The position numbers and the translations under genes were made by a program. The notes under the pieces were generated by a model. That model saw only the letters and a list, made by a program, of their open reading frames with translations. It did not search any database and was not told the origin of the DNA. This document shows, piece by piece, positions 15,785 through 35,936 of a DNA stretch of 64,000 nucleotides. The DNA is taken from assembly GCA_024691305.1 (NCBI GenBank), contig JAILNS010000036.1:124001-188000 (forward strand). Direction: 5' to 3'. Within the stretch, counting starts at the first letter, position 1, and each line of letters opens with the position of its first letter. The DNA is from Lachnospiraceae bacterium. GTDB taxonomy: Bacteria > Bacillota > Clostridia > Lachnospirales > Lachnospiraceae.

Positions 15785-16190
15785 GATTCTTAACTATGAC
15801 AAAATGATTCTTACCGTTTTTATATTCATATGACACGCTGTCCATAGTCTGTTTTACCATATATATTCCCAGACCGCCTATAGCGCGTTCATCAACAGAC
15901 AGTGTTATATCAGGATCCGGTTTAGCAAGAGGATCAAATGCAACACCCGAATCGTAAAGATGAATCGTTGCCACCTTGGGATCGTTTCCCGAAATATCTA
16001 TATCGATCTGAGCGTCACCCGTATTGGGAGCATATGCATAACTTGCTATGTTGATATACATTTCTTCAACTGCAATATCGATCTGCATCTGCACTCTTAT
16101 AGGACACCCGTTTGCTTCAAGTTCTCCATCGATAAAAGAAAGCACATTAGGCAGGTTTTCAGTTAAAGCCTCTATCCTAAGAGTCTTCAT
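15762..16190 (-). CDS. RsbW/SpoIIAB-like serine-protein kinase (HATPase_c_2 anti-sigma factor)
   Basis: N box IDIAVEEMYINIASYAY, G1 YDSGVAFDPL, G2 GGLGIYMVKQTMD. Confidence 0.85.
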   Translation of the reverse strand: MKTLRIEALTENLPNVLSFIDGELEANGCPIRVQMQIDIAVEEMYINIASYAYAPNTGDAQIDIDISGNDPKVATIHLYDSGVAFDPLAKPDPDITLSVDERAIGGLGIYMVKQTMDSVSYEYKNGKNHFVIVKNLVDEPDA

Positions 16191-18373
16191 TCCTTATCCT
16201 TTCCCGGACCGTAATAGGTCATACATAACATTGTAAGATCATCGAACTGTTCAGCACCCCCGACAAAGTCTTCAATAGACTCCGCCACATTGGAAAGAAC
16301 CTTTTCGGGTTTAGCATCAGGCTCACTGTTTAAAGCTTCGAGCAGCCTTTCTGTGCCGTACAGTTCGTCCTCTATATCCATAGCTTCACACACACCGTCA
16401 GTATATATAAACAGGGCATCTCCGGGGTGCATCACAAATTCATGTTCTTCAAATCTCATGCCATCCATACAGGCAAGAGCCGGAGAATGCTTATATATAA
16501 CGTAATCATATCCTTCTCCCGCACGTTTTATGAGCGGATGTTCATGGCCGGCATTGGAAGCCTTTCCATGTCCTGTTGATATTTCTACAATACCAAGCCA
16601 AACGGTAACAAATAATTCAGCTTCATTTCCCTCGCACAACTGGTCATTGACATCTGCAAGAATCTCAGAGGGAGTCCCTCCCATCTGCGCTCTGTTCTTT
16701 ATAAGTGTTTTGGCAATAACCATAAACAAAGCCGCAGGAACACCTTTTCCCGAAACATCAGCCATTACCATTGCAAGATGATCGTCGTCCACAAAGAAGA
16801 AATCGTAAAAATCGCCTCCGACTTCTCTTGCCGGATTCATAGTAGCATACAGGTCAAACTCGTTTCTCTCTGGATAGGGAGGAAATATACGAGGTAACAT
16901 ATCGGCCTGGATCTGGGTGGCCACATTAAGTTCTGCACCAATACGTTCTTTTTCTGCCGTGATCCGTGTGATCTCCTGAATATATATATTGGTACGTGCA
17001 GAGATATCGGCAAATGTATCGGCAAGTATCTCTATTTCGTCACCTGTATGATATATCTTGTCCATCTGGAACTGAGGATGATCTCCGTTTAAGGAAGCAA
17101 CCTCCTTGGACATTGTTTCTATCGGTTTTACAATTCTTTTAGCCAGCACAGAAGCATTTATTATCCCAAACATACTTATGAGGATAAGCACTATTACCAT
17201 GACCCTCTTCACGGGTTTGATCCCCTCGTCAAATGTCGAGTTTGCAGTTGAAGCAATATCCTCGTAATTCTCCTTAAGCATAGAGGTTGGTGTATCTACC
17301 TGCTCCTTGCTCGCAACCGATACGACTGCCCATCCTACCGTAGGAATTGTGGCACCCGACATATAATAATCACCTTCAGAGGTTTTAACAAGATGTACAT
17401 CTGTATTTCCGTCAAGAACGGCCTTTACAAACTCGGCAAGTTCCGTATCGGAAGACTCGCGAAGATCTGTGGCATCATCAGATGAATGCACTTCAAATAT
17501 CTTATGTCCCTCCGGAGCAAATACTGTATGTCCGTACTGATTAATGATGCAGACAAACCCACCGTACTGTTCTGAAGTGGTAACTGCTTCCTCCATTGAA
17601 TTCAAAAACAGATCTGCGCCTACAACTGCTGTCAGTTTTCCTCTTTCATCATAAACAGGCATCGAACATACAATTCCCAGTCTTCCCGAAAAAGCATCCA
17701 CCTCGACATCAGAGAAAAAGATTTTGCCCGTCTCTTTCGCTCCGATAAACCAGGGACGCTCGGTCACAGGGAAATCCATTATTTCATCTTCCGATACATA
17801 TTTGGAAGACGGAACCTGATCCGTTATAACCATCAGCCCGCTCTGAGTACCGATAAAACATGAATTAAGCTGGGCTTTACTGTCAAAAAGTGCGATCATA
17901 AGGTCGGACATATTACCGAGTAATCTGATTTCTTCCGCATATTCCGGATCGGATATGTCTACTCCCGACTCATAAAGAAGTTGTACACTGGTCTTTCCTT
18001 CGTTTGACTTATCGGGAACGGATACATCTTTACCCGGATATTTATTATCATCCGAATATAGCTTGGTCGCAAAATCACAAAGCATCCACACATTGCTCTC
18101 AAGATCACTGAACAGGTCGTCAGCAATATAGGCATCCAACGCCGTTGTCCTTCCCAGATTGGCATTTATGACATTATCCATCGTCTCCGCCGATATCGTT
18201 GTCATGGATTCGACCTGTTTATCATTTGTATCTTCCACTATATTCGTAAGCATTCGCGACTGGTATATGGTTATCCCCACAAGTGCCAGAAGGAAAAAAA
18301 TAATATTGAAAAAAACCAGATTAAATATTTTATTTTGTATTCCGCCTATTACAAGGTTTTTTATCTTTTTCAT
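16187..18373 (-). CDS. Membrane SpoIIE/RsbU-type PP2C phosphatase with Cache-like sensor and HAMP domain
   Basis: N-terminal TM, about 300-aa extracellular region, HAMP region, PP2C core (PAREVGGDFYDFFFVDDDHLAMVMADVSGKGVPAALFM; DALFIYTDGVCEAMD). Confidence 0.93.
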   Translation of the reverse strand: MKKIKNLVIGGIQNKIFNLVFFNIIFFLLALVGITIYQSRMLTNIVEDTNDKQVESMTTISAETMDNVINANLGRTTALDAYIADDLFSDLESNVWMLCDFATKLYSDDNKYPGKDVSVPDKSNEGKTSVQLLYESGVDISDPEYAEEIRLLGNMSDLMIALFDSKAQLNSCFIGTQSGLMVITDQVPSSKYVSEDEIMDFPVTERPWFIGAKETGKIFFSDVEVDAFSGRLGIVCSMPVYDERGKLTAVVGADLFLNSMEEAVTTSEQYGGFVCIINQYGHTVFAPEGHKIFEVHSSDDATDLRESSDTELAEFVKAVLDGNTDVHLVKTSEGDYYMSGATIPTVGWAVVSVASKEQVDTPTSMLKENYEDIASTANSTFDEGIKPVKRVMVIVLILISMFGIINASVLAKRIVKPIETMSKEVASLNGDHPQFQMDKIYHTGDEIEILADTFADISARTNIYIQEITRITAEKERIGAELNVATQIQADMLPRIFPPYPERNEFDLYATMNPAREVGGDFYDFFFVDDDHLAMVMADVSGKGVPAALFMVIAKTLIKNRAQMGGTPSEILADVNDQLCEGNEAELFVTVWLGIVEISTGHGKASNAGHEHPLIKRAGEGYDYVIYKHSPALACMDGMRFEEHEFVMHPGDALFIYTDGVCEAMDIEDELYGTERLLEALNSEPDAKPEKVLSNVAESIEDFVGGAEQFDDLTMLCMTYYGPGKDKE

Positions 18374-19587: not shown

Positions 19588-19615
19588 ATCCCGCTTCCCT
19601 ATCCGATATCAAGGA

Positions 19616-20461: not shown

Positions 20462-20531
20462 ATTTTATTCCATTTAAGCATTGTATATAACAGGCATTAG
20501 CATAATCAGTTAATCACAGCGAAACCGTCTG

Positions 20532-20834
20532 TCATTCAACCGTTAAAATATCGGAAAATCCCGTAACATCAAAAATCGATCTGACCGCACTCGGAGTATT
20601 GATTATCTTCATCTTACCTCCGCAGGCATTCATTGCTTTCTGAGCTGATAACAAAACTCTTAATCCGCTACTTGAAACATACACAAGGTCTGCTGCATCA
20701 AATACTATATTATTTACCATTCCGAAATATGGTCTTATAACTTCATCCAATTGCGGAGCAGCCATTGTATCAAGCTGTCCGGAAAGTTCCACCGTCATCT
20801 TATTACCCTGTAACTGTCTGTCAACGTTAAACAT
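20532..20834 (-). CDS. STAS-domain anti-sigma factor antagonist
   Basis: VELSGQLDTMAAPQLDE...DLVYVSSSGLRVLLSAQKAM...FDVTGFSDILTVE. Confidence 0.92.
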   Translation of the reverse strand: MFNVDRQLQGNKMTVELSGQLDTMAAPQLDEVIRPYFGMVNNIVFDAADLVYVSSSGLRVLLSAQKAMNACGGKMKIINTPSAVRSIFDVTGFSDILTVE

Positions 20835-20855
20835 ATAAGAACCCGTCTCCTTTCG

Positions 20856-21611
20856 TCATACTCCGTGATATCGCTTGCGCAGATATAATGCCAACCCGAT
20901 CATACCAAGAGTATCTATAAGATGAAAAATAACCGATGACCACACTATTCCTATATCCTGACCGAGTACGGAAAGTGTCACCATTTCAAGCCCCGTCGAT
21001 GATAGCAGGTATATGGATGCTGCGAGTATCGCAACAAGTTTTAAAGTCTTATCATCAAGAAATATTGCGGTCATTATCACGCCCAAAAGCAGTGCGATCA
21101 ACATTCCCTGATATTTAAAACTATGTGAGAGATTATAAAGGGAAGTATAATCATACTCTCCGCCTGATCTGGCAACAGCTCTGTACAGGTTAAGTGCAAA
21201 ATGCCTGTACACTTCGGAGAACACTTCATACATAAGCTGTACCCCCACAAAAATAACAAACCATGTTTCCAGTAATTTGCGTATGATCTCGGCATTTAAA
21301 GCTGAATTATCCTTACCGAAATACTCTTCCTGTAATGCGGCCATTTCCAATCGGTCATCGGCAGGAACAACAGAAATATATTTATTAATACGCCTTATTT
21401 GAACCACAAAAACACATGCCGATGCAATAAGTGTAAGCACCGCCACTACAAATTGGACACGCCATATAATGTCATCCGCCATATCAGGTTCCACACCGCC
21501 CCTGCGGATAACAGTGCGTACTATACCGGACACGGTAAATCCGATAAACCTTATTACCGTGACCGATAGTATCACATTTGATAGGATATGTTTCCTGGGG
21601 CTAAAATACAT
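20856..21611 (-). CDS. Polytopic membrane protein, family not recognised
   Basis: About 6 hydrophobic segments in a 251-aa ORF; collinear with neighbours. Confidence 0.7.
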   Translation of the reverse strand: MYFSPRKHILSNVILSVTVIRFIGFTVSGIVRTVIRRGGVEPDMADDIIWRVQFVVAVLTLIASACVFVVQIRRINKYISVVPADDRLEMAALQEEYFGKDNSALNAEIIRKLLETWFVIFVGVQLMYEVFSEVYRHFALNLYRAVARSGGEYDYTSLYNLSHSFKYQGMLIALLLGVIMTAIFLDDKTLKLVAILAASIYLLSSTGLEMVTLSVLGQDIGIVWSSVIFHLIDTLGMIGLALYLRKRYHGV

Positions 21612-21629
21612 ATAACATCAAATCCTTTT

Positions 21630-21830
21630 TCAGTTATTGTCTACGGGACCGGAAGCAGAATTCTTTATTCCGGCCACATCAAGAACGCCTGCAGCCGAAG
21701 CATATTCCAGATCATCATCATCAAGTTTTGTCACTTCATATCGACTTTCAACATCATCTATGATAGATTGAAGTTTTTGATTAGGTGAGAATTTCTGAAA
21801 ATCGAATAAACTCTTTAACTGTTTTTCCAT
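21630..21830 (-). CDS. 66-aa small peptide with bacteriocin/NHLM-like leader (MEKQLKSLFDFQKFSPNQKLQSIIDDVESRYEVTKLDDDDLEYASAAG-VLDVAGIKNSASGPVDNN)
   Basis: Strong SD AAAGGAG before ATG at 21830; acidic LDDDDLE motif followed by AAG resembles double-glycine leaders; C39 exporter encoded about 10 kb upstream in the same orientation. Confidence 0.6.
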   Translation of the reverse strand: MEKQLKSLFDFQKFSPNQKLQSIIDDVESRYEVTKLDDDDLEYASAAGVLDVAGIKNSASGPVDNN

Positions 21831-21935
21831 GGCTTGCTCCTTTCTGCACATTATCCGAAATGCACTGATATATATTTATACGCATAAGTCGGACAAATGG
21901 CAGAACATTTCTCATTCGTTTTTATAATCAGTTGA

Positions 21936-22412
21936 TCACGATATCCTTTTCCTAAGAGCCGCCAGGGCTTTCCTGTGTTCCAATTTCAGTATACCGTAGC
22001 TGATATTCATCATAGAGGCTATCTCTGTCAATGGATGATCATGGTAATAACGCAATACGATTATATCTCTCTGACGTTCAGGAAGTTCATCAAGTGCATC
22101 TGCAAGGTCCGATAACAAGCCTTCATTGATCAATTCGCTTTCAATGTCATCATTAGATGCCAGATCATCCGGAATTTCCTCCATCTTTGACGGACGTCTG
22201 AAGTAATCTGTAAGAGTATTTCTTGTTATCGTATAAATCCATGTAGAAACAGCAGCCTTTTTTTCGTCATAGCGATCGAGAGCCTGGTAAGCTTTTACAA
22301 AGACATCGGATGTAAGATCCTCCGCAAGGTCCACATTTCCTGTACGATGAATTATATATCCCAGTATCTTATCATGATATTGCATGTATAATTGTTCTTT
22401 ATCTATGCTCAT
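21936..22412 (-). CDS. ECF-type RNA polymerase sigma factor (sigma70 family)
   Basis: Region 2 DLAEDLTSDVFVKAYQALDRYD...STWIYTITRNTLTDYFRR; region 4 LPERQRDIIVLRYYHDHPLTEIASMMNISYGILKLEHRKALAALRK. Confidence 0.92.
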   Translation of the reverse strand: MSIDKEQLYMQYHDKILGYIIHRTGNVDLAEDLTSDVFVKAYQALDRYDEKKAAVSTWIYTITRNTLTDYFRRPSKMEEIPDDLASNDDIESELINEGLLSDLADALDELPERQRDIIVLRYYHDHPLTEIASMMNISYGILKLEHRKALAALRKRIS

Positions 22413-22473
22413 TCCACTGTAAACAAAGGGAATCCTGACTCTTCAAGACTCCCTTATCCCTATTGTTTTCTGT

Positions 22474-23106
22474 CTATTTTATCTTTTTTTCGATAGTAAG
22501 TTCAACAGTACTTCCCTTTACGGAAACACGAACATCATCAGCGATATTGGCAACTATCGACTTTTCCAGTTCATCCCATGCCATCTGTGCTGCAGGGTTG
22601 GTATTTTTGGCATCTTCTACATTATCTTTATACATGGATAATGACCATTGATAATCGGAAGATGCGAGTGATGAAGAATCTACGGCACCCAGCGAACTGT
22701 ACATAAGCGGTGATCCGCCATATTCAGTCTGAAGGCTTTCTACCTCATCCATTGTATAAAGACTGTTTTCAACTATCTCCCTGATCTTTCCCATGACACC
22801 CATGGCAGCATCATTCTGCTTGCGTTTGGACGCATCGATAAGAGCCTTCTTTTTAATATAATCCATGTCGGTTTCGGCCAAAAGATGAATATAAGCCTTA
22901 CCGTCCGAAGTGCTCTCAAGCCAGAACAACGCATCAAAATCCTCTGCTATGGCAGTTACCATACCCAGAGTTTCTTCTGCCAGTAAATGAAGTCTCATAA
23001 ATGTTTTATGATCAACATTTTCATATTCAGCAAATCTGTCGGTAATCTCAAGGGCCTCATCTCTTCCGATGCCCCATCCGTCTACCTTAATCTTATCCGT
23101 AACCAT
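22474..23106 (-). CDS. RsbW-like/degenerate HATPase protein, putative partner-switch component
   Basis: HLLAEETLGMVTAIAEDF resembles the N box of RsbW-like kinases but no clear G1/G2 boxes; adjacent to the STAS gene. Confidence 0.5.
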   Translation of the reverse strand: MVTDKIKVDGWGIGRDEALEITDRFAEYENVDHKTFMRLHLLAEETLGMVTAIAEDFDALFWLESTSDGKAYIHLLAETDMDYIKKKALIDASKRKQNDAAMGVMGKIREIVENSLYTMDEVESLQTEYGGSPLMYSSLGAVDSSSLASSDYQWSLSMYKDNVEDAKNTNPAAQMAWDELEKSIVANIADDVRVSVKGSTVELTIEKKIK

Positions 23107-23116
23107 AAGATTCTCC

Positions 23117-23416
23117 TTATTCTATAGTCAATATGTCTGAAAAACCTGTGACGTCAAAGATTTCCCTAACTTCCTCCGAAGTATTCTTAACGACCATACT
23201 GCCCTGTTTATTCATGATCTTCTGAGCAGAGAGAAGTACGCGAAGTCCTGCACTCGATATATACTGAAGATCTTTTATATCAAAGCACAACTCCGTAACA
23301 TCGTTTATTGACGATTTCAGTTCTTCCTCAAGTTGGGGAGAAGTTGTGGTATCGAGACGTCCTTCCAGTGAAACCGTAAGAACGCTACCGTTAACATCCT
23401 TTGATATGTTTAACAT
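23117..23416 (-). CDS. STAS-domain anti-sigma factor antagonist (second copy)
   Basis: VSLEGRLDTTTSPQLEEEL...DLQYISSAGLRVLLSAQKIM...FDVTGFSDILTIE. Confidence 0.92.
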   Translation of the reverse strand: MLNISKDVNGSVLTVSLEGRLDTTTSPQLEEELKSSINDVTELCFDIKDLQYISSAGLRVLLSAQKIMNKQGSMVVKNTSEEVREIFDVTGFSDILTIE

Positions 23417-23482
23417 CTTATTACCTCCAAATACGTTTATAGTTAGAAAAATACAACGATATGATTATATCAAATTTTATAT

Positions 23483-25390
23483 TTAATGTATAGGCTTTCC
23501 GATTTTTGCACAGACATCAGACTTAAGACTCACAGCATCAATCTTTCCTGTTCCAAGCATAGGAAATGACTCATACACGATAAAGAATGAGGGAATCTTA
23601 AATCTTGAAAGCTTACCCTCGAGTTCCTTACGGATAATATCTTCATCAAAACTTTCACCTTCGTTCAATATAATGCATGCCGCCACTTCTTCACCAAAGA
23701 ACTCACTCGGAACGCCTATAACCTTTACATTACCGATCATGTCAAGTTGTGATATGACAGCCTCAACCTCGCCCGGCATTATATTTTCACCACCGCGGAT
23801 TATAAGTTCCTTTAGTCTTCCGGAAAGGCAAAGATAGCCTTCTTTATTAATATAGCCAAGATCGCCTGTATGAAGCCATCCTTCTTCATCTATTGATTGA
23901 TCATCCAGCGCTCTCTTATAATATCCGGCCATCAGATTATACCCCTGAACCAGTATCTCTCCGGATTCACCCTGCTTACATTCTTCGCCCGTAATGTGAT
24001 CTGCGATCTTAATACTTATATTCCTGACCGGAAGCCCAACGGTGTGAAGGACATGCTCGTCACTGTCCTCATACTTTGTGATACTTACAGGTGCCATTTC
24101 ACTGAGTCCGTAAGAAGACAAAAAATGATCGTTTGGCAACCTTTGCTTGAACATCTGTATCTGAGCCTCTGTCGCAGCCGCACCCGATATGATCGTGCAT
24201 CTGATCGATGATAATTTTTCGTTATCAAAGTTCTTATTTTTCATAAGAGCTATGAGCATTGTAGGAACCGAATGAAAGATCGTGCATTTTTCACGGCTTA
24301 TCAGTTCAATAAGTGTATCTGTCCTTATATCTTTGGGTATATATATAACGGAATCCGCAACCGAATTAGCCATAAGACCTGCCACAAGGCCGAATATATG
24401 AAAAAGCGGCAAAATAAGGCATGTCTTATCAGTATTATTAAGCGTCTGATCCTGACTGTTAATGACAGCCGCATTTAAGATATTATAAGAAGAAAGAAGT
24501 ACCCCTTTTGGGATACCGGTAGATCCGGATGTAAATATCATCACACACGGATCATCAGATTCAACAAATAGTTCAAAGCGTTCGTTATATGCCCCTATCT
24601 CAGAGTATCTTGCGGTAAGATCGATCCCGTTACCGAAAAGATAATAATCTTTTATTGTACAGTCAGTGGTTTCTTTGACTGTTTCCTTAAATTTGTCCAA
24701 ATCCCTGATCTCTACGGTATTACCAAGACATATAAAATCAGCATCTCCGACTGTAGCACATCTGATAACCTCTTCGGCTCTCATAGAAGGATTGATCAGT
24801 AAAGCTATTCCGCCAAGTTTTTGGATCGCATAAAAAGTAAATACCCAGTTGGGAGTATTAATGCCGCAAATACCTACGTGAGATCCCTTATGAACACCTT
24901 TTGCGGACAGGTCGTGGGCGATGATATCAGAAGCTTTATCTATATCCGACCATGTATAGTTTACGCCTTCATATATGATCACATCGGAATCCGGTCTGCT
25001 GCTTAATTTGTTTTTCAAAAAATCCTTAAACGATAAATAAATATATTCTTCTTTTTCAAAGTTCGCCCTGTTATCTTCAACCGGTTCCATTTCGGTAACT
25101 ATCGGAATAAGGGTATCAAACCCGGTAGTAGCAAAGATTGCTTCTACTTCCTTGCTTACATTTATAACGGACATTGCGTCATCTCTGTATTTCTTACGGC
25201 ATATCAGTAATTCCCTAAGACCTGCCGACGAAATATAATCCACATTCTTAAAATCTATGATAACCCTTCGTATATCAGAGGGAATAGCAGCAATCTCTTC
25301 TCTTAATGCCGGGGATGTAATGGTATCGATCCTGCCGTTTACTATAAACATTATCTCATCTTTAGCCGGGTATTCTTTGTAAATCTTCAT
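23483..25390 (-). CDS. STAS domain fused to AMP-forming acyl-CoA/acid ligase (ANL superfamily)
   Basis: N-terminal STAS (FIVNGRIDTITSPALREEI...YISSAGLRELLI) then ANL motifs VMIFTSGSTGIPKGVLLS, LSSYGLSEMAP, GWLHTGDLGYINKEGYLCLSGRLKELIIRGGENIMPGEVE, GTGKIDAVSL. Confidence 0.93.
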   Translation of the reverse strand: MKIYKEYPAKDEIMFIVNGRIDTITSPALREEIAAIPSDIRRVIIDFKNVDYISSAGLRELLICRKKYRDDAMSVINVSKEVEAIFATTGFDTLIPIVTEMEPVEDNRANFEKEEYIYLSFKDFLKNKLSSRPDSDVIIYEGVNYTWSDIDKASDIIAHDLSAKGVHKGSHVGICGINTPNWVFTFYAIQKLGGIALLINPSMRAEEVIRCATVGDADFICLGNTVEIRDLDKFKETVKETTDCTIKDYYLFGNGIDLTARYSEIGAYNERFELFVESDDPCVMIFTSGSTGIPKGVLLSSYNILNAAVINSQDQTLNNTDKTCLILPLFHIFGLVAGLMANSVADSVIYIPKDIRTDTLIELISREKCTIFHSVPTMLIALMKNKNFDNEKLSSIRCTIISGAAATEAQIQMFKQRLPNDHFLSSYGLSEMAPVSITKYEDSDEHVLHTVGLPVRNISIKIADHITGEECKQGESGEILVQGYNLMAGYYKRALDDQSIDEEGWLHTGDLGYINKEGYLCLSGRLKELIIRGGENIMPGEVEAVISQLDMIGNVKVIGVPSEFFGEEVAACIILNEGESFDEDIIRKELEGKLSRFKIPSFFIVYESFPMLGTGKIDAVSLKSDVCAKIGKPIH

Positions 25391-25399
25391 TAATACACC

Positions 25400-26608
25400 T
25401 CACCTGATAAAGTATTCATTAAACAAATTAGGGAACACATCCACTCCTGCGGCAGACCATACGCATGCCGCAACGCTTAATATCATTACCACACTGTACC
25501 ACAGATACTTATGATCATTCATAAATCCGCCCACTCTTTTGATAAGATACCGGTTATAAAAAGCAACAACCAGGCTTGTAAGCATAAAAACCACTATAGC
25601 TAAAACATAATACGCATACCCTGTTTCAAATCCCGATACCAAAGGAATATACATAATGACACTTATGATGACCAAATGAACACAGTAATACCTGTTAATA
25701 TTCTGTGAGACAAAATTGACTCCTTTCATAAAACGATCCGGTAATATATTTGATATAAAATAAATAAATGCGATCAAAGCAGTATTGCATATCAACTGTA
25801 TAAATGCGTCCTGAAACGGAACTCCACACATCATATACCAGTTGTCAAATATCTTAAAAAAATCCTGATCACAAGAAAGGCCGATATAATAGTATGCTAT
25901 CCACACAACAGTACAGGGAACTATCAGTGCTCCATAAAAACCGGTTTTATCTTTTACATGCTTAAGGATATCACCGAATAGCATTCCGAATGCCGGATAT
26001 ATGAACCAGTTAAAGAACGGAAAATAGCTCTCGGATTCAGTCATTATAAAAAGTCCGAAAAGCTGGTCAAGAGGATAATGTCCGGTATGTATCTTCAGAT
26101 TCAAAAAAGTCCCTATAAGATTTATTGCCAGTGAAACACCAAATACCTGCCATGGTTTTAACTTAAGTAACCGGAGCAATCCAAGAGCAATAAAGAACAG
26201 TCCGGCAAACTGCATGATATCACTGGAAAAAACGAGGAATACCATTCCCCGTGATACACTGTCACCTGTTAAAAAATAATCCAACAATCCGGGAATGGCA
26301 TACCTAAATATGTTAAGAAGTTGGCCTGTCATAAGCAGACCAACTCCTCTCTTAGCATATTCTTTTGCGGAGACACTTCTGGAATAGACTACACCTATCC
26401 CCATACATATCATAAACGCCTGAGCCCCTATCGTACCGGCAAGTATATCATTGATAATATAGGAAACAGGATCATCCTCATATCCTACATACAATTCGTC
26501 GATACAATGTGTAAGGATCATCATAAATATGGAATAAGCTTTTACTAAATCTATTTCCTTCTGGCGTCCACCATTTACCGGATCTTTGGAAAAGATCTTT
26601 TCAATCAA
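25400..26608 (-). CDS. Polytopic membrane acyltransferase-like protein (acyltransferase_3/DUF1624-like)
   Basis: RQKEIDLVKAYSIFMMILTHC near the N-terminus, about 10 TM segments. Confidence 0.65.
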   Translation of the reverse strand: MIEKIFSKDPVNGGRQKEIDLVKAYSIFMMILTHCIDELYVGYEDDPVSYIINDILAGTIGAQAFMICMGIGVVYSRSVSAKEYAKRGVGLLMTGQLLNIFRYAIPGLLDYFLTGDSVSRGMVFLVFSSDIMQFAGLFFIALGLLRLLKLKPWQVFGVSLAINLIGTFLNLKIHTGHYPLDQLFGLFIMTESESYFPFFNWFIYPAFGMLFGDILKHVKDKTGFYGALIVPCTVVWIAYYYIGLSCDQDFFKIFDNWYMMCGVPFQDAFIQLICNTALIAFIYFISNILPDRFMKGVNFVSQNINRYYCVHLVIISVIMYIPLVSGFETGYAYYVLAIVVFMLTSLVVAFYNRYLIKRVGGFMNDHKYLWYSVVMILSVAACVWSAAGVDVFPNLFNEYFIR

Positions 26609-26620
26609 TTCTCAAACTCC

Positions 26621-29545
26621 TTATTTGTGTGCACGCTGTCTCTTTAACTGTCTCATCTTACGCTGATGCGCAATGAGTATAAGGAAACATGTGACCGCTA
26701 CGCCAAATGCAAGTGCTGCTCCGGCTATAAGCCATGTCACTATTCCCTTTGCTGTAGCAACCTCCTGAGCTATAGCATAAGAAGAAAATCTGTCGGTACG
26801 GAATGTAATGGTATTCGGATTATCATCCAGGTCAGGAAGAACGCTTAATTCTCCGTTATGAACACGCAGTACCGAATATGTCTTACCGTTTGAATATACT
26901 GCATCAGGTATCTGAATGACAACTTCCATCGTAGTAGGAAGTTCGGTTACCTTCTCCGTATATCCATCAGAAGTCTTAAGCATTGTAAGGTCAAAGTACT
27001 GAACCGGTTTCTGGCCAACCGCATTCTTCATGATGCGTTTTGTTGCGGCATCAGGTTCGTCCTGACCGCTAAGGCTTACAGAAATATCTACATGCCCACC
27101 TTTTGCAAGCTGCATAACATCATCATATGTAAGCATTTTCTGAACAACTACATCAAGATCGGGAAGACTGGGATTGATATTATCATCAGATGCCTGCATA
27201 AGTTCGTCCCTTGACATATTCTGATAGTCAATGCTTGTCATATATGAAGGTTCATATGCGTTCTGTACATATGCTCCAAGACCGCCGGTATAGAATGCGG
27301 CATCAAGGATATCCATTGTATTTCCTGAAGCAACCATGGTGCTTACCTCATCCATTGTTTTTCCAAGCATCTGGGTAACTTCTGAATAAACTTCAACTTC
27401 CTCAACCGAAACAACTCCAAGCTGTTCATCGGTAGGAACCTCTATACCTTCGAGATTCATTTCCTCTACAAACTCATCTCCGCTATCACCTGAAGCTGCT
27501 TCACTCAGACTGACTGTTGACTGAGTTGATGCAGTATTCGTTTCAGTCTTCTTAACAGGTTCCACTTTCTGAGACTGATTTGTCTTGCCCGAAGCTGTAT
27601 TTGCGGCTTTACCGGCATCAGTCTGTAAGAATGCCGCAGAAATAGTATGCGGTCCCTGTACATTTGTGAAAGTATATGTATTGACTGCTCCCACCTGAAC
27701 TCCGTCTACAGCAACTGCAAGGATTGCAAAACCGGACTTGGGTGTGATCGTATATGTAAGGTTTTGTCCCTGTGCTACAAGTGATTTTCCTGCAGGGCTA
27801 ATTGATCCGCCCGTGGTTGCTACACCTGAAGATATTTCGAATGTAGTTACCGAATTCTTAGTAAATACAGCTGTGCAGGTGCAATCCTGATCAACTTTAT
27901 CTACTTTGAAATTAGCATCTCTGCTTACATACTGATTATTAACCTGCCAACCCTGGAAAGTATATCCATTTGCTGCAGTAGCCTTCAGTGTAGTACCCTG
28001 TCCTAACTGGAATGTGCCTCCACCGGTCACTGAACCGCCTTCTTTGGGATAAGCCGCAAGTGTGATCGTATGTGATGTCTTTTCAAACATAGCGGTAAAT
28101 TTTCGGTCCACGGTAAGATTGGATAACTTGATTGATGCATCCTTACTTACTATATAATCGCCTTCCTTCCATCCGGTAAATACATAACCGTTATATGCTT
28201 TTGCCGAAATGGTAGTAGTTCCGCCATATGTGATCGTTCCGCCGCCAACAACATTACCGGCATCGCCGTTATTTGCCGAAACACTTACATTCACATAACG
28301 CTGTGCAAATTTAGCGGTTACTGTCTGATTCGACTGAATATTGGACAAAGTATAGTTCGAAGATGTTGAAACATTCTTTCCGTCTATTATCCAACCCACA
28401 AAATAATAATTATTTGAAGGTGCTGCCGATACTGTGACTGATCCACCCTGTGAAACAGCTCCGCCGCCTGAAACGACCCCGCTGTTTGCAGGATCCACCT
28501 TTACACTTACGTTATAACTGTTTCTTTGAGGTGTAACAAGTGAAGATGCCGATATAGACCCATCTGAAACACTTGTTGCTATAACATTTATGGAACCGGA
28601 AGTTTCATCACTAGCTATGCTGAGTGTACCGTCAGATGTAATCTTAGTTCCTGTTGATCTGTTTCCTGCAACGCTCCATCTTACATCGGATACAAAATCA
28701 CCTGTACCGGATACGTTTGCATAAAACTTATAATCATTACCTACCGCAAGAGTGGCCTGTGCCGGTGAAACTGAAACCTTAGTAACTTTGGCTTCCTTAG
28801 GCAGAACATTACCTGTTACTGTTACGGCAAGTGCCTTCTGATAATTCATGTCTCTGTTTGAATCGGCAAAGTAAAATACTGCTGTATAAGTACCCACTCC
28901 AAGATTGGATTTCATGGACACATTGTAACGTGAAGCTTCACCGGGTGCTAAATGAGTTCTGTCACCATGAAGCGTAAGATCAAATGCCCCTCCGTCATTA
29001 GTCTTGGTATATATAAGATCAACTTCGGTATTACCGGTATTGGTAATATCTATCGGAATATAGTCACGTTCCGCTCCTACCTGTGCGTTTCCAAAATTAA
29101 GATTAGTCGTTCTTCTGCCATCCAACAAATCACACGAAAGACTGTATTTTTGATCCTCTTCCGCCTTTTTCTGTTCTGCGGCAGCAGCTTCTGCGGCAGC
29201 AGCTTCTTCTGCAGCTCTTTGAGCCTGTTCTTCAGCCTGTCTTTGTGCTTCCTGGGCAGCTGCATCGGCTTCTGCCTGTTTTTGCGCCTCTTCAGCCTCT
29301 CTGGCCGCTTCCTCATATGCAGCCTCACGTGCAGCTTCCTCTTCGGCTGCGGCCTGAAGCAATTCATTCCAAGCAGCTTCGTCTGCTTCAGTCCAATCGC
29401 TGCCTTCACCACCATCCGTATTTTCCACGGCTTCAGTATTTTCTTCAGCCCTGACTACCATGGATATCCCTGCAATATTCGAAACGAATACCGAAAGAGA
29501 AAGTACGATGGCAAGTAGTAGTGAAATCGTCTTCTTCATTTTCAT
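26621..29545 (-). CDS. Secreted, membrane-anchored surface protein: signal peptide, Ala/Glu/Gln-rich helix, Ig-like domain, four InlB-type B repeats, C-terminal TM
   Basis: Signal peptide MKMKKTISLLLAIVLSLSVFVSNIAG; GGG...F.GW repeats; C-terminal TM and KRQRAHK tail, no LPxTG. Confidence 0.88.
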   Translation of the reverse strand: MKMKKTISLLLAIVLSLSVFVSNIAGISMVVRAEENTEAVENTDGGEGSDWTEADEAAWNELLQAAAEEEAAREAAYEEAAREAEEAQKQAEADAAAQEAQRQAEEQAQRAAEEAAAAEAAAAEQKKAEEDQKYSLSCDLLDGRRTTNLNFGNAQVGAERDYIPIDITNTGNTEVDLIYTKTNDGGAFDLTLHGDRTHLAPGEASRYNVSMKSNLGVGTYTAVFYFADSNRDMNYQKALAVTVTGNVLPKEAKVTKVSVSPAQATLAVGNDYKFYANVSGTGDFVSDVRWSVAGNRSTGTKITSDGTLSIASDETSGSINVIATSVSDGSISASSLVTPQRNSYNVSVKVDPANSGVVSGGGAVSQGGSVTVSAAPSNNYYFVGWIIDGKNVSTSSNYTLSNIQSNQTVTAKFAQRYVNVSVSANNGDAGNVVGGGTITYGGTTTISAKAYNGYVFTGWKEGDYIVSKDASIKLSNLTVDRKFTAMFEKTSHTITLAAYPKEGGSVTGGGTFQLGQGTTLKATAANGYTFQGWQVNNQYVSRDANFKVDKVDQDCTCTAVFTKNSVTTFEISSGVATTGGSISPAGKSLVAQGQNLTYTITPKSGFAILAVAVDGVQVGAVNTYTFTNVQGPHTISAAFLQTDAGKAANTASGKTNQSQKVEPVKKTETNTASTQSTVSLSEAASGDSGDEFVEEMNLEGIEVPTDEQLGVVSVEEVEVYSEVTQMLGKTMDEVSTMVASGNTMDILDAAFYTGGLGAYVQNAYEPSYMTSIDYQNMSRDELMQASDDNINPSLPDLDVVVQKMLTYDDVMQLAKGGHVDISVSLSGQDEPDAATKRIMKNAVGQKPVQYFDLTMLKTSDGYTEKVTELPTTMEVVIQIPDAVYSNGKTYSVLRVHNGELSVLPDLDDNPNTITFRTDRFSSYAIAQEVATAKGIVTWLIAGAALAFGVAVTCFLILIAHQRKMRQLKRQRAHK
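27626..28516 (-). repeat. Four tandem protein-level InlB B-like repeats (about 70 aa each)
   Basis: Units at about aa 344-414, 416-488, 490-562, 567-640; first three share GGG(A/T)...YxFxGW...AxF. Confidence 0.8.
29147..29395 (-). repeat. Low-complexity Ala/Glu/Gln-rich helical segment in the surface protein
   Basis: EEEAAREAAYEEAAREAEEAQKQAEADAAAQEAQRQAEEQAQRAAEEAAAAEAAAAEQKKAEE. Confidence 0.8.
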
Positions 29546-29640
29546 CCTCCTCTGAAAACTGACTTTCGCATCTGTATGTTTATACGAGGTTCATTTCCAA
29601 GTGGCAATATTTTTTGCATAAACAAAAATCAGATACATAC

Positions 29641-29646
29641 ATTATA
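29641..29646 (-). promoter_or_regulatory. Candidate -10 box (TATAAT) for the surface-protein/partner-switch transcription unit
   Basis: Minus strand ACAATATAATGTATG about 95 nt upstream of the 29545 start; -35 not convincing. Confidence 0.35.
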
Positions 29647-29702
29647 TTGTATAGCCACATAGATTTTAATACAACATATCCAACAAACTTCCATCAAAAA
29701 TG

Positions 29703-29727
29703 CAAAAAAAAGCAGCTACCTGCCCCA
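29703..29727 (-). terminator. Weak intrinsic terminator after the second ABC gene
   Basis: Minus strand GGGGCAG-GTAG-CTGCTTTTTTTT directly after the stop codon. Confidence 0.5.
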
Positions 29728-29729
29728 TT

Positions 29730-31913
29730 TCAAGGATCGAGTCTCTGCTTTTTGACAAGTTTTGCAAAGTGACCGTCAAGATTTACAAGGTCATCATATT
29801 TGCCTTCTTCAACTATATGTCCATCCTCCATAACAAGTATCCTGTCACAGTTTTTTACCGTTGATAGTCTGTGTGCAATAACGATCCTTGTGCATTTAAA
29901 TCCATCCAGTGCATCTTTTACCTTCCTCTGCGTCTTATTATCAAGAGCGCTGCTTGCTTCATCAAATATAAGTATAGCAGGTTTGGGTGCTATCGCACGT
30001 GCTATAAGGATCCTTTGTCTCTGTCCTCCGGATATACCTCCCTGTCCCTCGGTTATGTAGGTATTCATGCCCATAGGCATGTTTCTTATATCTTCCGCTA
30101 TACCGGCTTTTTGCGCAGCATCCCATGCTTCTTCCATGCTGAGTCCGGGTGAAGAAAGTGCAATGTTTGAATATATATCTCCCTTAAATAACTCCCCGTT
30201 TTGCAAAACCGTACCGATGTTTTTTCTGATAAATCCGGGATCGGTATATGCAAGATCATATCTGTCATAGTACACAGCGCCTTTTTCAGGTTTTTCAAAA
30301 CCAAGAAGGAGCTTTACAAGTGTAGACTTTCCACATCCTGTTCGTCCGACTATAGCAACATATTCTCCCGCTTTTATATTTACAGACATATCCTCGAGGA
30401 TATAGGGAGATCTTTCATCGTACCTAAAGTATACATGGCTAAGTTCGACGCTTCCGTTAATATGTCCGGGCTTATTCTTTTCTTCGGTCAATTCGGGACA
30501 TGTGTCTAATATAGGTGAGGACATATCAAGAAGTGCCGGAAGTTTACTGAAATGGGATATCACTCCGGCAAAGGCCAAAGATGCCCCCATTAGACGACCA
30601 TAAGAAGCCGAAAAAGCATAATATCCGGATCCGGTCATTCCGCTTACTATAGAAATATAATAAACAACTATATTACCGGTCAAATATACCGCCAGAGCAA
30701 AAACTTTATTGTATTTTACAAAAAACGGCGGATTATAAGTTATCTTAGCCACATCCGAATAAGCATTTCCCCATTTTGCAAAAGCCCTGTTTTCCGCCCC
30801 GGTAAGTCTGATCTTTTCTATTCCGTTTAGCAGCGCATATGTGAGACTGTTTTCTTTTGCGGAGGATTCCTGCAGCATACGTGATGCCCTCACCCTTGCA
30901 GGTATAGCGGTCACATACACAAGGCATGTAATAAGAAATATCAGTATACAGGGCCCAACAAGTTGCGGACCAAATGAAGCGATCTGAAACAGATACAATA
31001 AAGAAAGTATCCCAACAAGACCAAATCCGAATAATCCTTCTGCAATATTCCTGCCAAGCGAACCCAAAGCGTAAATCCTGTTTGCAAATTCACCTGAGGA
31101 ATATTTGTTCACAACACTTGCCGGCATTGACAAAACACGCATCATGGCAGCAGCTTCAACGGATTGTGATACTTTAAGGGCAATGCGTTCATTAAGCAAT
31201 CTTTGAGCCGCATGCAAAATCTGATAAGCAAAAGCCCCTGTAAAAAGAAATGCGGCAGCTCCGATAACCATATTCATCTCTTTATTCTTAAGTATCGGTC
31301 CTGTGATCAATCCATATAGATATGGTTCGATCATGCCTGTCAGTATCACGGTCAGTGTAACTGCTATTGCCATAAATACATCGCCCGGTAATATATTCTT
31401 TTTGATATATTGTAAAAGATCATATACGCCGATCTTTCTCATCGGCAGCGGCTCATAAAAACATATGGCGCTGCCCGCCAGCATATTGGCATTACTCTGT
31501 TTTATTCTGATCTTCTTCCCCGTAAACGGATCCGTATAACAATATCCGGACAGACCACGCGGGATAAGTGCAACCGGATGATCGTCTTTTTTCATAAATC
31601 CGATCATGGGTATGCCGGCGTTCTTGTACCACTTAGGATCAAGGTCGACCTCTCTTGTCATAAATCCAAGCGGTTCGAATATAAACTCGATCTGTTTCTC
31701 AAGGCTTTGAATGTCATTCGGAATGTAGGTACTCTTAAGATTGAAATATTTAATAATATCCTTAAGTGCCTGCCTGGACATGGTAGGATCATCCGCAAAT
31801 TGTCCACCCTTGCCTTTATCAGATATCACTCCTGACATACGGGCAAAGGACTCCCGAAGGTCCTTTTGATCGCTTTCTATTCTTTGATGGATCTGCTCGT
31901 CAAACCAGTTCAT
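29730..31913 (-). CDS. NHLM-type ABC transporter (permease+ATPase) with divergent N-terminal domain
   Basis: VAIVGRTGCGKSTLVKLLLGFE, ISGGQRQRILIARAI, ILIFDEASSALDN; N-terminal ~170 aa lacks the C39 Cys motif. Confidence 0.88.
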   Translation of the reverse strand: MNWFDEQIHQRIESDQKDLRESFARMSGVISDKGKGGQFADDPTMSRQALKDIIKYFNLKSTYIPNDIQSLEKQIEFIFEPLGFMTREVDLDPKWYKNAGIPMIGFMKKDDHPVALIPRGLSGYCYTDPFTGKKIRIKQSNANMLAGSAICFYEPLPMRKIGVYDLLQYIKKNILPGDVFMAIAVTLTVILTGMIEPYLYGLITGPILKNKEMNMVIGAAAFLFTGAFAYQILHAAQRLLNERIALKVSQSVEAAAMMRVLSMPASVVNKYSSGEFANRIYALGSLGRNIAEGLFGFGLVGILSLLYLFQIASFGPQLVGPCILIFLITCLVYVTAIPARVRASRMLQESSAKENSLTYALLNGIEKIRLTGAENRAFAKWGNAYSDVAKITYNPPFFVKYNKVFALAVYLTGNIVVYYISIVSGMTGSGYYAFSASYGRLMGASLAFAGVISHFSKLPALLDMSSPILDTCPELTEEKNKPGHINGSVELSHVYFRYDERSPYILEDMSVNIKAGEYVAIVGRTGCGKSTLVKLLLGFEKPEKGAVYYDRYDLAYTDPGFIRKNIGTVLQNGELFKGDIYSNIALSSPGLSMEEAWDAAQKAGIAEDIRNMPMGMNTYITEGQGGISGGQRQRILIARAIAPKPAILIFDEASSALDNKTQRKVKDALDGFKCTRIVIAHRLSTVKNCDRILVMEDGHIVEEGKYDDLVNLDGHFAKLVKKQRLDP

Positions 31914-31928
31914 ATAATCCGTTTCCCA

Positions 31929-34076
31929 TTAATCATTAGTAACAAGTTCGGTATATATACCGCCCTTTTTATATAGCGTTTCGTGTGTCCCGCGTTCGGC
32001 AACAACACCCTTATCCAATACGATTATCTCATCACACTCTCTGACAGTAGACAGTCTGTGAGCAATTATGATACATGATATCCCCCTTGCTTTTATAGAC
32101 CTCATAACCTCATATTCAGTCTCTGCATCAAGGGAACTCGTTGCTTCATCAAGAATTATTACAGAAGGATCCTGCGCAAGAACACGTGCTATCTCAAGCC
32201 TTTGGCGCTGACCTCCGGATAGATCTCTTCCGTTTTCACTCAGTTTCAAATGATATCCTCCGGGTCTCATAAGTATTTCATCGTGAAGGCCCGCATCCCT
32301 GGCTGCAAGGATAACTTCAAAATCTTCAATGGATCTGTCCCAAAGACGGATATTATCCGCCAACGTATCTTCAAAAAGAACGATATTCTGATCAACCATT
32401 GCAACGGATCCGGTAAAGATCTCTCTCGGAATATCTTTTATATTTTTGGAGTCAAAAAGGATCTCCCCTTCCCATGGTTCATAAAGTCCCGTAATAAGTT
32501 TGCCGATAGTGGATTTTCCGCTTCCGCTCTCGCCCACGATCGCAACGCTCCTGCCCGGTTCAAGTTCCATATTAAAATCAGTGACTACAGGGTTCCCCAG
32601 TTTGGAATAGCCGAATGTCAGATTCCTTATCGAAACCTTTCCCGTAAGTTTTGAGTAGTCATTAAGTATATCACCGGACCTGACATAAGGATCAGCAGGA
32701 TAATCTAAAATGTCTTCTATCTTCTCCGATCTGGTTCTCAGTTCCGAAAGTGACCGTCCGGGATCCGTATGAGTCATTACAGGTTGCATGAGTATCAGAA
32801 GAAACTGCTGTATCATTACAATGATACCTAGTGTAAATCTTCCGTTTATCGTAAGATAAACCCCAAAAACAAGTACGATGTAACTTGTAAGCATGTTAAC
32901 TATCTGCGGGATCACACCGAAAACGGCATCAAATTCAAACATTTTAACATGTTCGCCATAAACAGATGCCTGATATCCTGCCCATTTATCAAAAAAACCC
33001 TTTTCGGCACCTGCTGCTTTGATCGATTCATTCATACTTATACCGGTCATGGTAGCCGAATAAAGTTTTGTGGAATCACGCAATTTAAGACGTGCCATAT
33101 TGTTTTTTTGTTCAGATATAAACTTAAAAGACAAAAGATTTATCAGAAGGGACAAAAGACCCGCAAGAGCCAGGACAGGGCTTAATGAAAATATGATACC
33201 TGAGTAAAATACTACCATAAGACCATATAAGACAAACTGTATAATACTTTCGGTAAGCGCAGAAGCTATAAGTGCATTATCTGACTGTCTGACCATTAGA
33301 TCGGCGTTTAAACGCTGTGAAAAAAAATCCATTGGAAGTCTTAATATCTTCCACATAAAAGCCGCATTACTCTCTATGGCAAGTTTTCCTTTGATCTTCA
33401 GGGAATAAACAGTTCTGACCGTTTCTGTTACTATACGGACGAAACACAAAACAGCAGTCAGGATCATAAAAGGTCTAAGCCACGAAGCAGCTGCTCCGGA
33501 AAGGAGTTTATCATAGAACACCCTGTTCATTACCGGGTCGATGATTCCCAAAATACAGATCAAGGCAGAAGTTATAATAACAAATGCAAAAAGACCGCCT
33601 ATTCCTTTTAGATGTCTTAAGAGATAAGACAGATCGTTTTCTCTTTTCCCCGAAGGAACAAAGCCTTCTCCCGGAGTAATGATAAGACAAACTCCCGTAA
33701 AAGACCGGTCAAACTCGTCCATTGACACTTCTATCCGGCCTCTTGCAGGATCATTTATAACGGCTTTGTTTTTTTTGAACCCGTCAAGTACGACAAAGTG
33801 ATTAAAATCCCAATGTATAATACATGGAAACGTTCCTTTTTCCCTGACAGCCTCAACACTCATCTTGTAGCCGTTTGCTTCAAACCCGTAATTTCTGGCT
33901 GCTATGGATATGTTTTTCATATTGGAACCGTCTCTGGATACGCCGCAGTCGACACGTACCTGTTCAAGCGGGACCCATTTACGGTAAAAAGCCATGATCA
34001 TGGCCAGACATGCTGCTCCGCATTCCAATGCTTCAAGCTGCATTATGACAGGGACTTTTGCTATGCGTTCACTCAC
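31929..34076 (-). CDS. NHLM-type C39-peptidase ABC exporter
   Basis: C39 Cys motif VPVIMQLEALECGAACLAMIMAFY, His region IIHWDFNHFVVLDGF, Asp in INDPARG; VAIVGESGSGKSTIGKLITGLYE and LSGGQRQRLEIARVLAQDPSVIILDEATSSLD. Confidence 0.94.
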   Translation of the reverse strand: MSERIAKVPVIMQLEALECGAACLAMIMAFYRKWVPLEQVRVDCGVSRDGSNMKNISIAARNYGFEANGYKMSVEAVREKGTFPCIIHWDFNHFVVLDGFKKNKAVINDPARGRIEVSMDEFDRSFTGVCLIITPGEGFVPSGKRENDLSYLLRHLKGIGGLFAFVIITSALICILGIIDPVMNRVFYDKLLSGAAASWLRPFMILTAVLCFVRIVTETVRTVYSLKIKGKLAIESNAAFMWKILRLPMDFFSQRLNADLMVRQSDNALIASALTESIIQFVLYGLMVVFYSGIIFSLSPVLALAGLLSLLINLLSFKFISEQKNNMARLKLRDSTKLYSATMTGISMNESIKAAGAEKGFFDKWAGYQASVYGEHVKMFEFDAVFGVIPQIVNMLTSYIVLVFGVYLTINGRFTLGIIVMIQQFLLILMQPVMTHTDPGRSLSELRTRSEKIEDILDYPADPYVRSGDILNDYSKLTGKVSIRNLTFGYSKLGNPVVTDFNMELEPGRSVAIVGESGSGKSTIGKLITGLYEPWEGEILFDSKNIKDIPREIFTGSVAMVDQNIVLFEDTLADNIRLWDRSIEDFEVILAARDAGLHDEILMRPGGYHLKLSENGRDLSGGQRQRLEIARVLAQDPSVIILDEATSSLDAETEYEVMRSIKARGISCIIIAHRLSTVRECDEIIVLDKGVVAERGTHETLYKKGGIYTELVTND

Positions 34077-34512
34077 TTAAGCCTCCCCGGTCATTAAGAA
34101 AACCTATAGGTTTTATGGATTCTAAGACTATCTGTCCTTCATATACACCATCAGGAAGCACAGATTCAAACTCATTTAATTCTACGACACCTACAAATCC
34201 CAGATTATCATTATATATATATCCTATCTTCACATCCTGGTCTGCTATATGCATAAGCATACCGGTCTTAACACTGTCCTGAACTGAAGACGGAATATCC
34301 GCATATGCGATACCGTCTATAACCTCTACCCTGACATTTACAGTATCCTCTATGTCTATCACTGATGCAAAGATAATAAACCCTGCAAGCAGTGCAATGA
34401 TCGCAGAAAGGAACATCCACAAGCGGGGACCTGTAACCTTTAAGTGATCACGCAACTGCTCGGGCGTAGAAATCTGTTCTATGCTTTCTTTTCTAAAAAT
34501 ACTCTCTTTCAT
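34069..34512 (-). CDS. Short HlyD/NHLM-type secretion protein
   Basis: FRKESIEQISTPEQLRDHLKVTGPRLWMFLSAIIALLAGFIIF resembles the N-terminus of NHLM secretion proteins; overlaps the C39 exporter. Confidence 0.75.
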   Translation of the reverse strand: MKESIFRKESIEQISTPEQLRDHLKVTGPRLWMFLSAIIALLAGFIIFASVIDIEDTVNVRVEVIDGIAYADIPSSVQDSVKTGMLMHIADQDVKIGYIYNDNLGFVGVVELNEFESVLPDGVYEGQIVLESIKPIGFLNDRGGLSE

Positions 34513-34582: not shown

Positions 34583-35743
34583 TCAGGCATCTAAAAACGC
34601 TATCGTATCCGCATTCATATATTCTTCATAAAGTTCATTGAGTACCGAATCATCCTTGACCTGTCCGTTTTCATCGGCATCTTCAAGATCACGAAGATCG
34701 GAATGGTGATAATATGTAGCATTTCCGCTTTCATCATACTCAACGATAGCTTCTTCATCGATCATGATAAAGCCTGCTTCTATAGTCATTTTTTTCATCC
34801 AATGATTACTGCCGACATATAATTTTCCGTTAGCAACAGCAAGAGGATAAGCCGTACCGCCCGCCGTTACATAACCTGCATATTCCGGTGCACCGTCTTC
34901 ATTGTAGAAGTATATATCCGCATCAATAGCCCCGGGATCGCCCTCATCGTCGGCAGCATACATATATGAAGTCACAAGAAGGACATCAACTCCGTCAATA
35001 TTTACATTTGCAAATCCCCAGCCGTCCTCAAGTGTATCAACTATCTGGGTGAAAGTATCACATCCCGTAATATCCGGAGGAGTATGTTCCTCTTCATCGG
35101 GAATAAGAGCACTCTCCTGCTTATCGGGATCATATATAGCTTCTGCGACACCCTGAATGTCAAACCCGTCAAGATCGGGAGCTGTGACACTAAGAGAATA
35201 AGATGCGCCTGTCTCAAGATCAAACCAGGTGCACAGATCGGCGTAACCTTCATCACCTATATAACGGTATGTCTTACCGGTCATCTGACCGCCTGCCCAA
35301 TTTGCAAGGGTGATATCATCCTGAGCGGCCCACTCATAATACATTCCGGAGATATCTGCTTTTTCATCACATGTCATCTGTTCTCTGGCTGTAAATGTAT
35401 TACCGTCAAGGTCAAATGTCATCTGCACGAGTGGTGCTTCATCTGCTTCCATCTTGCTGAATACAACATTTGTTGCCCCTTCGGGAGCGCTGAATCCGTT
35501 GGGAACAAGAGCTGCTGCTTCTCCCTCGGTTATTTCTGTCCAGGGATTTGCCAAGCCCGTGTTCTCTTCCGTTGCTTCTTTGGTTTCCTCGGCCTGTTCC
35601 GTTGTTTCTTCGGCAGGTGCGGCAGTTTCCTCGGAAACAGTCTCTTCAGTCGCTGCATCTGACGCCTGATCGGCGGATGCGCCACATGCCGTAAGCGACA
35701 GGGTTAATATGCCTGCCAAAAGTAATGCTGTGAATTTTCTCAT
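34583..35743 (-). CDS. Secreted lipoprotein of unknown function, possibly first gene of the exporter unit
   Basis: Lipobox LTLSLTACGAS; acidic linker; about 300-aa globular region. Confidence 0.8.
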   Translation of the reverse strand: MRKFTALLLAGILTLSLTACGASADQASDAATEETVSEETAAPAEETTEQAEETKEATEENTGLANPWTEITEGEAAALVPNGFSAPEGATNVVFSKMEADEAPLVQMTFDLDGNTFTAREQMTCDEKADISGMYYEWAAQDDITLANWAGGQMTGKTYRYIGDEGYADLCTWFDLETGASYSLSVTAPDLDGFDIQGVAEAIYDPDKQESALIPDEEEHTPPDITGCDTFTQIVDTLEDGWGFANVNIDGVDVLLVTSYMYAADDEGDPGAIDADIYFYNEDGAPEYAGYVTAGGTAYPLAVANGKLYVGSNHWMKKMTIEAGFIMIDEEAIVEYDESGNATYYHHSDLRDLEDADENGQVKDDSVLNELYEEYMNADTIAFLDA

Positions 35744-35843: not shown

Positions 35844-35866
35844 ACATAAAAACAATATATATAAAA

Positions 35867-35936
35867 GCAGGATACGGGAATCGAACCCGCCTCCTCAGCT
35901 TGGGAAGCTGATATACTACCAATGTACTAATCCTGC
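35867..35936 (-). tRNA. tRNA-Gly (anticodon CCC)
   Basis: Acceptor GCAGGAT/ATCCTGC, anticodon arm TCAGC-TTCCCAA-GCTGA, T arm GCGGG-TTCGATT-CCCGT. Confidence 0.95.

Follow-up and report, generated by a model that had tools for sequence, protein, structure and literature searches.

A C39 peptide exporter cluster in a Lachnospiraceae bacterium with a co-encoded ECF sigma factor, candidate ECF promoters and partner-switch genes

A 64,000-nt stretch of a Lachnospiraceae bacterium genome (GCA_024691305.1, contig JAILNS010000036.1, forward-strand positions 124,001-188,000; hereafter the window) was found to carry a gene cluster combining a C39 peptidase-containing ATP-binding cassette (ABC) exporter with an extracytoplasmic function (ECF) sigma factor. 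Inspection of open reading frames (ORFs) and Pfam domains placed the whole cluster on the minus strand with short gaps between genes. In the order of transcription, it comprises a lipoprotein, a short HlyD, the C39-ABC exporter, a second ABC exporter, a hairpin, a surface protein and an acyltransferase, followed by STAS-ANL, STAS1, RsbW-like and ECF genes, a small leader peptide that we term pep, a protein with five transmembrane (TM) helices, STAS2, YitT, GGDEF, Cache-PP2C and RsbW (Table 1). The last three genes are joined by consecutive 4-nt overlaps. All genes named in a preliminary description of this DNA, and their common orientation, were confirmed; a PP2C gene and an intact RsbW gene are present but lie outside the interval 20532-34512 to which it referred. 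We read the cluster as an ECF- and partner-switch-regulated secretion system for peptides with double-glycine (GG) leaders, a reading to which we assign a probability of roughly two in three.

Table 1. Positions of cluster features within the window and the basis of each assignment.
Feature	Position	Strand	Basis or remark
tRNA-Gly	35866-35936		precedes cluster; PilZ gene further upstream of tRNA
Lipoprotein	34583..35743	-	directly upstream of exporter; 46% identity over 398 aa to L267 ORF
Short HlyD-type adaptor, 149 aa, one TM helix	34069..34518	-	conserved before C39-ABC in nearly all relatives
C39 peptidase-containing ABC exporter (PCAT)	31929..34076	-	Pfam Peptidase_C39 E=3e-35
Second ABC exporter, no peptidase	29730..31913	-	NHLM_micro_ABC2 639.3 bits
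Terminator-like hairpin and T-run, 3' of exporter genes	29700..29726	-	consensus match only
Candidate ECF-type promoter TGCCA-N15-CGTATA, AA next, 5' of surface protein	29581..29606	-	exact match, weight matrix 24.1/26
Large surface protein	26621..29545	-	signal peptide, four InlB B-repeat domains (PF18998 x4), C-terminal TM
Membrane acyltransferase (HGSNAT/Acyl_transf_3 type)	25400..26608	-	Pfam
STAS fused to acyl-CoA-ligase-like ANL enzyme	23483..25390	-	Pfam STAS and AMP-binding
STAS1 anti-anti-sigma protein, serine in YISSAGL motif	23117..23416	-	TIGR00377 79 bits vs cut-off 53
Degenerate RsbW/SpoIIAB-like protein	22474..23106	-	AlphaFold2 model and Foldseek; family alignment
ECF sigma factor, paired with pep	21936..22412	-	Pfam
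Candidate ECF-type promoter TGCCA-N15-CGTATA, AA next, 5' of pep	21877..21902	-	exact match, weight matrix 24.3/26
pep, 66-aa leader peptide	21630..21830	-	ATG at 21830 after AAAGGAG; alignments
Membrane protein, about 5 TM	20856..21611	-	recurs beside pep and surface protein in L153, L154
STAS2	20532..20834	-	Pfam
PP2C/SpoIIE phosphatase with extracellular dCache sensor	16187..18373	-	Pfam
RsbW-type kinase, N- and G-boxes intact	15762..16190	-	PF13581 E=3e-19

The exporter was compared with 80 loci in named GTDB genomes, the nearest among 589 relatives, with 6 loci from relatives and with 40 more; L and G numbers below denote loci and genomes. The HlyD-C39-ABC2 trio was nearly constant across related loci. 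Alignment revealed the C39 catalytic residues Q13, C19, H93 and D109 to be invariant, and these residues share a single chain with an ABC exporter, as is diagnostic for a PCAT. The preliminary description had spoken of NHLM/C39 exporters; the C39 peptidase was borne out, whereas plain NHLM membership was rejected because both ABC proteins scored just below the curated family cut-offs (830.5 against 853.3 bits for C39-ABC with TIGR03796, NHLM_micro_ABC1; 639.3 against 709.4 bits for the second exporter with TIGR03797, NHLM_micro_ABC2). The short HlyD of the window gave no match to TIGR03794 and no database match of its own, and its homologue in L016 matched this model (NHLM_micro_HlyD) at the N-terminus only (E=1.8e-9, 37 versus 156 bits). 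The C39 exporter has no second close match in its own genome and is patchily distributed, being present in 57 of the 392 genomes of the order that we surveyed. Of 126 loci, 56 had GG-leader-like ORFs close to the exporter. Proteins with a GG leader and a CxxC...CxxC zinc-ribbon-like cargo were common at exporter loci or ECF-type promoters (L024:518-859, L028:3470-3883, L078:14815-17466, L113, L251, L262). Additionally, the named, complete isolate genome of Anaerocolumna sedimenticola CBA3638 (L084) has STAS, PP2C and two cysteine-rich GG-leader peptides encoded close to the exporter; the stretch examined around this exporter contained no pep.

Alignments of pep revealed a conserved LFDFQ(K/R)F..N..L..I half, a C39-type LxDDDL..(A)AG/GG site and a short tail of about 12-25 aa that differs between species. 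In most pep loci, spanning several genera, the gene adjoins that of the sigma factor, which contains sigma-70 regions 2 and 4 only and hence belongs to the ECF group. Seeds for the pep search were taken from exporter loci, while the genome search itself was unrestricted. It returned pep in 12 of the 392 genomes, representing seven genera, and all 12 were exporter-positive (p=3e-11, uncorrected for phylogeny), including cases in which pep and exporter occupy separate contigs. Among the searched genomes of genus g56, ECF orthologues (44-51% identity) were confined to those with pep. Assignment of pep to the NHLP/Nif11 leaders was rejected for want of a family match. AlphaFold modelling of pep by itself gave a weak structure (pTM 0.32), which was left out of the fold searches.

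A motif, TGCC[A/G]-N15/16-CGTATA, was recognised upstream of pep in other loci, the window sequence having been left out of its derivation. Allowing at most one mismatch, it occurred in 9 of 23 regions upstream of pep and in 4 of 320 such regions belonging to other genes, a comparison that is not independent because the motif was chosen on those regions. A weight-matrix scan of the window yielded two strong sites (24.3 and 24.1 of 26; next best 17.2), one 5' of pep and the other 5' of the surface protein. In L153 and L154, surface-protein homologues adjoin pep-ECF and likewise have the motif 5' of them. Sigma-70 consensus promoters in the region did not exceed chance level. The surface-protein operon behind the motif ends, in the window, in the ECF gene. 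Candidate autoregulation is suggested by these placements, 5' of pep (a pep-ECF operon in most relatives) and 5' of the ECF-carrying window operon. Neither the position of the ECF gene in an apparent feed-forward operon nor the pairing of pep with ECF across genera had featured in the preliminary description.

Genomes were then scanned with motif patterns, using the reversed pattern as a control. A stricter pattern gave 75 matches against 15 for the control in nine pep-positive genomes and no enrichment in 12 pep-negative relatives (7 against 19). Within genus g56 alone, the corresponding figures were 50 against 5 for pep-positive and 7 against 8 for pep-negative genomes. For 60 unlinked sites, the sequence extended far enough downstream, and a small GG-leader ORF began 10-150 nt downstream of 26 of them; random positions gave a background of 1.1% for exporter loci and 4.5% for the loci of the sites. 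Following removal of near-duplicates, 20 of 48 unlinked sites preceded such an ORF (p about 5e-15). Examples of these leaders are VLNEDELEKVSGG, RLTDDELMKVSGG and LILDDEDLDRASGG, and the cargo behind them is highly varied, with several members zinc-ribbon-like. Some unlinked sites precede lipoproteins, one of which, the L267 ORF (G389) that starts 19 nt after an ECF-type motif site, is 46% identical to the window lipoprotein. Three GG-peptide genes stand in tandem at L272 (G419:C11:3140-6000); all have an identical ECF-type promoter and near-identical leaders, and they differ in cargo.

Promoter sites, their enrichment in pep-positive genomes and the GG-peptide genes behind them together make it very probable that the ECF factor controls a regulon of exported peptides. 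We have strong confidence in two predictions from sequence, namely that the co-encoded ECF factor reads TGCCR-N15/16-CGTATA promoters and that the C39 exporter handles the GG-leader peptides of the regulon. The peptide secretion system proposed in the preliminary description is strongly supported, with GG-leader genes around the exporter family and predicted ECF promoters in relatives that often precede GG-leader peptides. In pep genomes G018 and G332, a variant, TAACAAA-N12/13-GCGTA, precedes pep; few further sites of this variant were found in these two genomes and no GG ORF lay behind any, and for this reason we claim no regulon for the subgroup. A more distant pep-ECF subgroup (L016, L100, L155) carries the variant CTAACAAA-N12-GCGTA upstream of pep, the -35 element having seemingly changed with the sigma factor.

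Partner-switch genes were counted in the 122 usable exporter loci, many of which are truncated contigs of metagenome-assembled genomes, with genes called as longest ORFs. A STAS, PP2C, RsbW or RsbW-like gene was present in 62. Compared with gene ranks 6-12, positions within three genes of the exporter were enriched for STAS (p=3e-5), PP2C (p=1e-3), RsbW (p=4e-4) and ECF (p=1e-3), whereas GGDEF, our control, was not enriched in the same test (p=0.56). Near-complete replicas of the cluster were identified in other lineages, at L029 (STAS, STAS, RsbW-like, PP2C, RsbW, pep, ECF, exporter) and at L153/L154 (RsbW-like, surface protein, TM protein, pep, ECF, C39, ABC2, RsbW-like, STAS, RsbW). L158 presents a single row, PP2C-STAS-ECF-RsbW-HlyD-C39, in which the ECF and RsbW genes overlap and all domains except the short HlyD were confirmed by Pfam. 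A full RsbV-RsbW-RsbU set (serine-motif STAS, intact kinase, SpoIIE phosphatase) is encoded together in the window (15762-25390), L029 and L158. The STAS-ANL fusion adjoins the membrane acyltransferase, and similar matches are rare in related loci (L045, L046). The preliminary description had named rare adjacency of exporter and STAS/ECF genes as the observation that would count against it; these genes were instead neighbours in many independent loci. Its proposal of gating by partner switching is consistent with the gene arrangement, most clearly at L158, and the agreement extends as far as that arrangement.

The RsbW-like protein returned no Pfam or NCBIfam match. An AlphaFold model built from 14 sequences (pTM 0.67) found its best PDB matches among the anti-sigma structures SpoIIAB, UsfX and RsbW (E=0.016, which is modest; probability 1.0; target TM 0.68). 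The family alignment shows neither the N-box Asn nor a DxGxG box as in RsbW/SpoIIAB kinases. The protein is probably not a kinase, since the N-box Asn and the ATP-site glycines are absent, and the label 'degenerate' given earlier is apt for a protein that lacks these motifs yet has a SpoIIAB/UsfX/RsbW-like predicted fold. It was encoded in 46 of the 392 genomes, of which 28 were exporter-positive where 6.7 were expected (p=2e-15), and in 9 of the 12 pep genomes. In L144, L145, L166, L153 and L154, it is tandemly duplicated within one chain of roughly 400 residues.

We propose that the HlyD/C39-ABC/ABC trio would cut leaders after GG or (A)AG and export the cargo. The ECF factor would transcribe pep and its own operon (surface protein, acyltransferase, STAS-ANL, STAS, RsbW-like, ECF) in a positive loop; it would also drive, in most pep-positive relatives, scattered GG-peptide genes whose products leave via the C39 exporter. 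The STAS proteins, RsbW-like protein, RsbW and Cache-PP2C would form a partner switch that sequesters or releases the sigma factor according to an external cue; we have moderate confidence that these proteins act on the ECF factor. As the constant ECF partner bearing an exporter cleavage signal, pep may signal to the sigma factor that export is taking place. In one tentative version, which we consider possible with the odds against it, pep would be an exporter-coupled anti-sigma factor whose LFDFQ half holds ECF until C39 processing or export of pep frees it. If so, cargo peptides would be made only when the export machine works, and pep would give an ABC peptide exporter of gut Clostridia a checkpoint of the FlgM/BtrA kind, atop the partner switch.

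Several observations weigh against the proposed system. No ECF-type promoter was found 5' of the exporter genes in the window by motif or weight-matrix scan. Pattern searches gave no motif sites in pep-positive genomes G200 (an exception within g56) and G256 (another genus). In the window's own genome, motif matches barely differed from the control (23 against 19; stricter pattern 14 against 5), and a single unlinked GG-leader gene lies behind the motif (G000:C15, L284, MADNMNMELNDENMAEAAGG), which is within chance for that genome; further sites there precede pep, the surface-protein operon and possible lipoproteins. The missing kinase motifs and modest fold match of the RsbW-like protein count likewise, as do its presence in 18 genomes without the exporter and the absence of a nearby partner-switch gene from about half of the exporter loci.

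The last two observations would also be expected were the partner-switch genes mere neighbours controlling an unlinked SigB/SigF-type factor or cyclic di-GMP, with only exporter, ECF and peptides forming one system. We regard this as unlikely given the gene-rank enrichment that GGDEF does not share, the excess of exporter-positive genomes among those with the RsbW-like protein, and the gene order of L158 and L177. Partner switching might alternatively gate transport and not ECF, with STAS proteins acting on the exporter ATPase domains. MlaB acting on MlaF provides a precedent for STAS control of an ABC ATPase (PMC7367683), and in many loci without a nearby sigma gene a STAS gene lies directly 5' of HlyD-C39. 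The location of STAS and RsbW or RsbW-like genes with ECF in the window, L144/L145, L029 and L158, together with the match of STAS1 to an anti-sigma antagonist model, makes this quite unlikely.

A different role for pep would be that of a pheromone, its conserved leader directing secretion of a species-specific tail that is sensed such that the regulon answers cell density. A short, species-variable tail behind a conserved leader is indeed familiar from streptococcal GG pheromones (PMC7595303). Against this, the LFDFQ half exceeds what such leaders require in both length and conservation and did not turn up in other predicted substrates, pep members of L109 and L113 bear zinc-ribbon-like cargo in place of the short tail, and no conserved receptor kinase lies beside pep; we consider a pheromone rather doubtful. 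An ordinary NHLM-type bacteriocin cluster, or one exporting a ribosomally synthesised and post-translationally modified peptide, would account for the GG leaders and the proximity of the exporter to TIGR03796/TIGR03797. However, a Pfam scan covering some but not every window ORF found no LanM, YcaO or radical-SAM maturase, in line with the preliminary description; neither pep nor the tested substrates matched NHLP/Nif11; the cargo is diverse and includes zinc-ribbon-like proteins; and the paper describing NHLP (PMC2887384) mentions neither 'sigma' nor 'STAS'. Such a cluster thus appears improbable.

The nearest functional analogue of the proposed ECF-controlled exporter is the Bordetella BtrS/BtrA/BtrUVW control of type III secretion, which shares an ECF sigma factor, a small protein encoded with it that the machine has been suggested to export (in Bordetella, the anti-sigma factor BtrA), STAS, an RsbW-type kinase and SpoIIE phosphatase, and a regulon with an unlinked substrate gene (PMC7498569). 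The machine in our case differs, being a C39 ABC peptide exporter of Clostridia and not a type III secretion system, and RsbW-like and STAS-ANL proteins are additional; the likeness of pep to BtrA would be a functional analogy. To our knowledge, streptococcal SigX possesses neither an ECF-pep pair nor a STAS/RsbW/PP2C module. SigX/ComX resembles our system as an alternative sigma factor that turns on GG-leader bacteriocin peptides (PMC4497675). The NHLP/NHLM trio (TIGR03794/03796/03797) similarly has HlyD, peptidase ABC and second ABC in a row with GG-leader substrates (PMC2887384), but our cluster departs from it in its sub-threshold scores, very short HlyD, attached sigma and partner-switch genes, and lack of an NHLP/Nif11 precursor or maturase among the ORFs scanned. 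Faecalibacterium MAM and its PCAT share a GG-leader protein, PCAT and HlyD-like gene, and an unexplained cluster of 'sporulation' genes has been described close to mam (PMC8836110, PMC12184118). No published description of a C39 exporter arranged with ECF/pep and partner-switch genes was found in the open-access literature.

The cluster may offer a frame for those 'sporulation' genes reported beside the Faecalibacterium MAM gene. Its promoter sequence can be used to search one genome after another for peptide genes that do not lie near the exporter and would escape cluster-based mining. The system would represent a means, so far little described, by which gut bacteria control the release of peptides, and a testable regulatory circuit in gut and rumen Clostridia for the secretion of many unstudied small proteins.

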